Shown here: piece after piece, positions 20,401-22,202 of the stretch
Position numbering within the stretch: the first letter of the stretch is position 1
Layout of the letters: each line of letters begins with the position of its first letter
Source of the DNA: Lophium mytilinum
Lineage: Eukaryota > Ascomycota > Dothideomycetes > Mytilinidiales > Mytilinidiaceae
DNA: 64,000 nt
Direction of reading: 5' to 3'
Assembly (NCBI GenBank): GCA_010093605.1
Contig: MU004182.1
Coordinates: forward strand, 2,651,195 to 2,715,194
The notes under the pieces: model-generated
What the model saw: only the letters and a program-made list of their open reading frames with translations
Database searches by the model: none
Told to the model about the DNA's origin: nothing
Translations under genes and position numbers: made by a program

Positions 20401-22202
20401 GCAGCAGCCTTACGATCCGGATCCTCATTCCACGCCCAATCGTAGGGATGGAAGAATAAATGACCAGTATTTACGGCAAGCTGTGTATATTTATACCAGA
20501 AGTCGCCGCTTTCGATTGTTGCATCTCTCAGCTGATCTATAAGAATTCCGTCGTGAGCTGCGTCGACTTCTTTTGAGGTAAGTTCAGGCACATTGCTACG
20601 TCGGATGCTGGCATTGCTACGTCGGATGCTGGCATTGCTACGTCGGATGCTGGGTATGGCCCCCCAAGTATACTCCCGTACACTCGGCGTCATGAATTCC
20701 AACGTCTCGTCTGGGGATGTACGCAAGACTCTGTCCCATATCGGCCAATCAAGCCCGTTTGGTGGCACATCAAAGATATTGGCGTCATCGTCAAAAGGTT
20801 CTTTCTTTGGCCAGTGCGTAAAAGTGATTCTTGGTGGTGTAAAAGGAGGGAAATATGCCCGGGAGATGCCTACGTCCTCTGGGTCTGGCCCTGCAGGAAC
20901 GCGTTTAGGCGGAAGGTCGAGGTGTTCAACCACGAGTTTGCATTTCTCGCCAAACCAGCCATTTTTCCTTCGCGCTACATAGTCGATCACCGCTACACTA
21001 CGATGCTTCCCTCCTCTGGAGCAGAGTCCATACCGGACCGTAGCAGTGGTTTTCCCACTTGCCCTGGCTTCCTTTGATTTTTCATCTCGTAGGCGGCGAA
21101 TATCCTCCCAACACCAATTGGCGACGTCTTGCAGTCTGTATGGTGGTTTGTTTGGTTCTCTATACTCCAGGCGCGAGCGTATCGGTGTATCAAGACCAGT
21201 AAGATGTTCAGGCACAGGCGATCTCCGATCGGCCTTATCACCCTCTGGACGCAGGCCGTTCACATATTCTACTGGTCGTAGATCTCCATCTTTGATTTCG
21301 TACCACTCGAGATCCGGTGGCACTTTTTCTTTAGTCCATGTGTTTGTTCTCCTTGTAGCGAACGAGAAGAGAAATAGTTCAAAGTCTATGTCCGTGTTGT
21401 CTACTGCTTCCTCTGTGACCGCAGTCTCTGGCGGGTTACCATCTTGTGGTGGCTGTTTCGATGACCCCGCCTTCGTCGTTTTCGATTTCGGCTTGTCAAC
21501 TTTCTTCGGGACGAATTTCCCTTCCCGTAGGTCCTTTTTGTACTGCGTTAGGAGGTCCACCATGGGGTCACTCTCTTTGCTGACTGGTAGGCCCTTTTCC
21601 TGGCACCACCCTTTTAACGTCCCTGCTGTCATTTCGCCCAAGAACTTCTTATTGCGCACGTCGCTTTTATCTGGGAATATTGTGGCATCCGAGTCTGATC
21701 TATCTGACTCGGGTTGTGGGTCCTCCTTGTCTCTTTGTTCAAGCGCGGTTATGGTTTTTACCTTGTTATCGCGAAGAGCTCTCTGATTCTTGCATCCTCT
21801 CTTCTTGGCCATTTTGTAGAGTATGGGCTGACGCCTTTCCCAGTAAAACTTTCTGTGTAGCCTTCGTGCTTTCCTAGGTCCGTCTTTGGAGCTACTCCTT
21901 GTCTCTTTCTGCGGCGGCGCAGAAGTATCAGTTTCATCTCCACTCTCAGCACTGCTGGTGGGTGTAGGAGGTTTTCTCCCTGGCTTTGTCGGCCTCTTCC
22001 CCCTCTGCGACGGCGCGGGAGCAGCTGCCTCTTCGGTACTTTCATCTTCGCCGCCTTCGTCTTCGGCATCCTCGCTAACTTCGTCTTCAGCATCCTCGCT
22101 ACCTTCGTCTTCGGCATCTTCGCCATCGTCCGTGAGTTTAGGCGGTGTCTTTGCTACCTTTGCCAGCCTCTTCCCCTTCTGTCGCGACGCGGGAGTATTG
22201 GT

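Follow-up and report, generated by a model that had tools for sequence, protein, structure and literature searches.

A divergent homolog of the bacterial RapZ C-terminal domain in a long protein of the fungus Lophium mytilinum

We analysed a stretch of 64,000 nucleotides from the Lophium mytilinum genome (assembly GCA_010093605.1, contig MU004182.1, positions 2,651,195 to 2,715,194 of the forward strand), hereafter the window, in which a single open frame on the minus strand encodes the protein P0001; its ATG was chosen because the ortholog likewise begins MGPKA. That ortholog, P0002 (BDZ99DRAFT_567102, 1813 amino acids), is co-linear with P0001, to which it is identical in 873 of 1,759 aligned columns (50%), and comes from Mytilinidion resinicola; both species belong to the Mytilinidiaceae (Dothideomycetes). 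Residues 536-712 of P0001 are very probably a divergent homolog of the C-terminal domain of bacterial RapZ (RapZ_C). The gene, the domain and its central loop lie at the following window positions:

17670..23009, minus strand: whole gene of P0001, a single open frame of 1,779 amino acids from ATG
20874..21404, minus strand: RapZ_C-like domain, residues 536-712, identified by profile, profile-profile and fold evidence, with the fold match at about residues 541-700
20994..21029, minus strand: phosphate-pocket loop GLCSRGGKHRSV, residues 661-672, in which H669 and R670 align to E. coli H252 and R253

A preliminary description made from the letters of this DNA had named four landmarks in the order of bacterial RapZ C-terminal domains. 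All four are present in that order within residues 549-699, beyond chance by the controls given here: SFA at residues 549-551, TGLDTPIR at 604-611 (21177-21200), the pocket loop, and VEHLDL at 694-699 (20913-20930). PF22740 (RapZ_C) was the sole Pfam family matched by whole P0001 at E<=1 (E=0.011); the excised domain scored 21.1 bits (E=3.8e-4) and whole P0002 matched at the same place with 18.3 bits (E=0.0027). NCBIfam at E<=1 returned one row only, RapZ, at E=0.12. A bacterial RapZ_C profile, whose rows were found with a query alignment containing the window domain but in every case have both RapZ Pfam domains, N- and C-terminal, in precomputed annotation, gave 15.5 bits for the window domain and 11.4 for the ortholog, with 6.0 or less for 208 controls made by shuffling or reversing domain sequences; it was built on 75 of 76 RapZ proteins, P0004 (GGKHRSI) having been dropped because HRSV was required. 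When the profile was instead built on six copies of the domain at five other fungal loci, the window domain scored 14.6 bits and the ortholog 27.9, and controls 3.9 or less. In a profile-profile comparison, window and ortholog together matched the bacterial set at 96.8% (score 65.2) over 87 columns that start at TGLD and run beyond HLDL; the top score in 200 column permutations was 25.6, the reversed profile reached 10.9, and nine other segments of P0001 in the same test 8.2-15.6. Against the six fungal copies, the match was at 92.6% (46.6 versus 24.1).

A fungal profile of eight sequences, comprising window, ortholog and the six copies from other loci, found RapZ in the PDB at E 9.2e-8. Searched against proteins, with scoring limited to the 7,998 candidates that had the most words in common with it, it returned 77 rows, namely the L. 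mytilinum protein P0003 and 76 proteins with RapZ N- and C-terminal domains, and gained no further fungal relatives among those candidates. In prokaryotic contigs, a narrow test with two peptide patterns from window plus ortholog matched 83 stretches and confirmed no relative. The predicted window domain adopts the RapZ C-terminal fold, as the preliminary proposal implied, with 15% identity over the fold alignment; the model thus supports a RapZ_C fold, with low confidence in an extra segment ahead of TGLD (domain residues 44-62). The model also resembles, at low Z, the fructose-6-phosphate subdomain of phosphofructokinase, which may mean only a common arrangement.

Some results weigh against this kinship. 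Neither the window domain nor the ortholog reaches the curated PF22740 cut-off of 27 bits, so we class the domain as a divergent homolog, not a Pfam-grade member. The window-plus-ortholog profile alone found no PDB chain at E<=1, and a whole-protein search of the PDB gave 15 weak rows, RapZ not among them. Nor is the structure model a separate line of evidence for homology, since 15 of the 76 bacterial RapZ rows went into its alignment.

The closest known system is the bacterial RapZ C-terminal domain (PF22740; PDB 5o5s, 5o5q, 5o5o, 8b0i and 8b0j), from which the window domain differs by the extra segment before TGLD and by changes at H190, T248 and Cys247 and at most of the basic residues that contact RNA. 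The E. coli pocket comprises H190, T248, G249, H252 and R253, with C247 nearby (PMC9841335; PMC5737377); the path of the small RNA is matched by the basic residues K170, R184, K194, R196, R211, R238 and K251, and function is abolished by H190A, G249W and R253A (PMC9841335). We compared these places in an alignment of eight fungal copies (window, ortholog, L001, both copies in L003, L004, L007 and P0003) with 16 of the 75 bacterial domains, thinned at 70% identity. The five pocket places read R, R, G, H and R in the window domain (3/5 kept) and P, E, K, H and R in the ortholog (2/5 kept). Both have Ser at 247, and neither holds the full ligand pocket; the H190 column lies in a poorly aligned region with an extra segment. 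At the seven basic RNA-contact places, the window has an identical Lys at 251 and Lys for Arg at 238, and the ortholog Arg at 251 and His at 238. Judged from this alignment, the putative phosphate-gripping His-Arg pair stays, and most of the other E. coli surface does not.

The preliminary description had placed one inserted residue between the Cys of the loop and GGKHR, a reading that depends on the alignment. Read back ungapped from HRSV, as in MAFFT, no insertion is needed, and Ser664, not Cys663, falls on bacterial Cys247, although one of the MAFFT alignments has a two-residue gap upstream of Ser664; hhalign instead places two extra residues within the loop. As the two programs disagree, loop length and the Cys/Ser pairing are uncertain. 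Ser664 is common to window and ortholog, Cys663 is Phe in the ortholog, and S-x2-G-x-HRSV is kept in both. A C-x5-R loop occurs in 75/75 bacterial domains tallied; among the eight fungal copies, three have C-x5-R (L001, L004, P0003), unlike the window protein, which has S-x5-R together with its ortholog, and three (L003a, L003b, L007) have none of the Cys, His and Arg.

The domain is not confined to P0001. PF22740 occurs at no fewer than eight places in at least six loci of this genome, window included, these counts being lower bounds from a six-frame search that ignores introns and scores best candidates only. Four places, one each in four loci, exceed the cut-off; the window (21.1 bits) and the C13 locus (20.9 bits) fall below it. 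The other RapZ_C proteins (P0003, also BU16DRAFT_378400, and L001, L003, L004 and L007) have the domain in common with the window protein and mostly come from short open frames, taken without intron check (159, 281, 211 and 365 amino acids, and 671 for L003). In the L003 frame, two RapZ_C stretches (together 5.6e-15; the second alone under the cut-off in the genome search) flank two CCCH stretches (zf-CCCH_4, 3.2e-9). This frame (L003:943-2958) lies on contig C5 at about 37.2-39.2 kb, and both its RapZ_C loops are without Cys, His and Arg. L003 may be a more promising starting point for learning what RapZ_C does in fungi.

Bacterial RapZ also has an N-terminal kinase-like domain (PF03668), which the window protein lacks, with no match in P0001 at E<=1; the five other fungal RapZ_C proteins gave no match to it either. 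The genome search produced a single row, whose 14.4 bits fall short of the 25.4 cut-off; among 14 control genomes, E. coli and five others matched. As far as profile scores tell, the fungus thus has RapZ_C but no clear counterpart of the RapZ N-terminal domain.

The preliminary description had added that such a protein had not been seen described. This fits the literature, in which, judged mostly by titles, no work on eukaryotic or fungal RapZ_C was evident: searches for RapZ with Ascomycota and for UPF0042 with fungal gave none, and the papers on 'RapZ C-terminal' concern E. coli. It fits less well with UniRef, whose automatic name for P0003 is RapZ C-terminal domain-containing; the domain in this fungus is thus already known to automatic annotation. 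A homolog search with P0003 returned P0003 alone among 1,205 candidates. By tblastn, P0003 has weak matches (26-32% identity, E 1e-3 to 6e-3) in four unannotated phage records (MT837595.1, MT838813.1, MT836517.1 and OR846593.1). For P0001, the one match among 6,735 candidates was P0002, in a search that reaches only proteins with common exact words at 0.55-1.75 times its length, so absence elsewhere is not demonstrated.

Around the RapZ_C-like domain, P0001 contains further segments, given here with their identity to the ortholog:

22890..22970, minus strand: RGG-rich N-terminus, residues 14-40, six RGG repeats inside residues 16-37; 76%
22716..22829, minus strand: helix-extended-loop-helix-like segment, residues 61-98, termed SAP-like in the preliminary description; 53% over residues 58-100
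21510..21656, minus strand: second helical segment, residues 452-500, SAP-like by eye only; 59%
19665..20873, minus strand: conserved region, residues 713-1115; 59%
18810..18878, minus strand: C2H2-like pattern C-x2-C-x14-H-x3-H, residues 1378-1400, spacing the same in both species; 58%
18564..18590, minus strand: PKKRGRPKK, which we take to be an AT-hook core, residues 1474-1482, RGRP at 1477, PKKRGRPRK in the ortholog; 75% for the AT-hook region
17673..18509, minus strand: Lys/Ala/Pro-rich, histone-H1-like tail, residues 1501-1779, net charge +57; 78%

The remaining segments are 38% (acidic disordered), 67% (basic), 40% (linker) and 65% (Ser/Arg-rich) identical. The chromatin-type setting claimed earlier holds by composition only, through the six RGG repeats, the single AT-hook core and the charged tail. 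The SAP-like helices find no support: four segments from both species gave no Pfam SAP match at E<=10, in searches limited by HMMER filters that discard most matches above 0.1, and the first helical segment had a sub-threshold HeH/LEM match in the ortholog (E=0.011) and none in the window protein. The proposed C2H2-like finger is, like HeH/LEM, a weak lead, its spacing kept in both species and its Pfam zinc-finger match sub-threshold and confined to the ortholog. Residues 713-1115, a far longer stretch than the second helical segment at equal conservation, have no Pfam match, and their structure model was unusable (predicted local distance difference test, 31.2). Within them, the unit SIRRSN occurs three times in frame (residues 787-806; 20592-20651) where the ortholog has one related stretch; the copies are a recent short expansion. 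Elsewhere in the window, the plus strand carries a neighbouring gene with a shelterin TPP1/ACD match (13003-16458; PF10341, 39.8 bits), an RRN9 (Pol I factor) protein (28777-30972) and a HET-domain protein (34620-36734), and the minus strand an open frame with FYVE, TCP-1 and PIP5K domains (4830-11936), presumably a Fab1/PIKfyve-type lipid kinase.

Our best guess, at a probability of about 0.38, is that P0001 is a nuclear, chromatin-associated scaffold with a phosphate-holding RapZ_C-like module. The module would keep the His-Arg pair at a helix start and so hold a phosphate group, most likely one in the backbone of an RNA or on a phosphorylated partner, and the RGG repeats, AT-hook and tail would bind nucleic acid without sequence choice. 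P0001 would not be an RNase adapter like RapZ, because nowhere in this genome does a RapZ N-terminal domain exceed its cut-off, and little is left of the surface that contacts RNA in E. coli. Several of the data tell against such a scaffold. H190 and T248 are kept in neither species, the ortholog has Lys in place of G249, and few of the basic RNA contacts survive; at 41%, the RapZ_C-like domain has the lowest ortholog identity among the folded-looking segments (others 53-59%), which fits relaxed constraint; and the putative nuclear location is drawn from composition only.

The same altered pocket and contact residues, the low identity and the three fungal copies without Cys, His and Arg also suit a structural relic, in which the fold is kept for protein-protein contact or dimerisation and has no ligand of its own; PMC5737377 describes dimerising C-terminal domains in E. 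coli RapZ. Against it, S-x2-G-x-HRSV is kept in both orthologs amid an otherwise drifting domain. We regard a relic as a serious possibility, nearly as likely as the scaffold, whereas the kinship of the domain is solid and amino-sugar sensing unlikely. Fungi make glucosamine-6-phosphate (GlcN6P) for chitin, and a eukaryotic sensor of GlcN6P or another hexose phosphate could link chitin-precursor supply to nuclear control. The pocket His-Arg is kept, and E. coli RapZ binds GlcN6P (PMC7199280) via its C-terminal domain (PMC9841335), but the losses at H190 and T248, Ser in place of Cys247 and the lack of Pfam metabolic domains in P0001 make this doubtful. The nucleic-acid or metabolite sensor of the preliminary description is weakened by the same pocket and RNA-contact changes. 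Equally a long shot, and if anything longer, is the wider idea that a bacterial-type RNA- or sugar-phosphate-sensing domain, its kinase-like partner gone, ties chromatin state to the chitin-precursor pool or to some class of nuclear RNA in a chromatin-bound protein of this fungal family. C-x5-R resembles the tyrosine-phosphatase signature, and its presence in all bacterial domains tallied and in L001, L004 and P0003, with Ser in window and ortholog, would allow a phosphatase-like loop turned pseudo-enzyme that traps a phosphorylated partner; the fold match is to RapZ, however, we know of no RapZ phosphatase activity, and hhalign gaps the loop elsewhere, leaving this quite improbable. Chance likeness of short motifs in some other domain, favoured by the sub-cut-off Pfam scores and the empty PDB search with window and ortholog alone, is rejected on the shuffle, permutation and segment controls and, with the fold match, a PF22740 signal in two species and RapZ_C at five other loci (four over the cut-off), retains only a sliver of probability.

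To our knowledge, bench work on RapZ_C has been confined to a bacterial RNase adapter, of which it forms the half that binds RNA and senses GlcN6P. With at least six RapZ_C loci, and with the domain joined to CCCH fingers or chromatin-type tails, this fungal genome offers a eukaryotic set for asking what this domain does alone.
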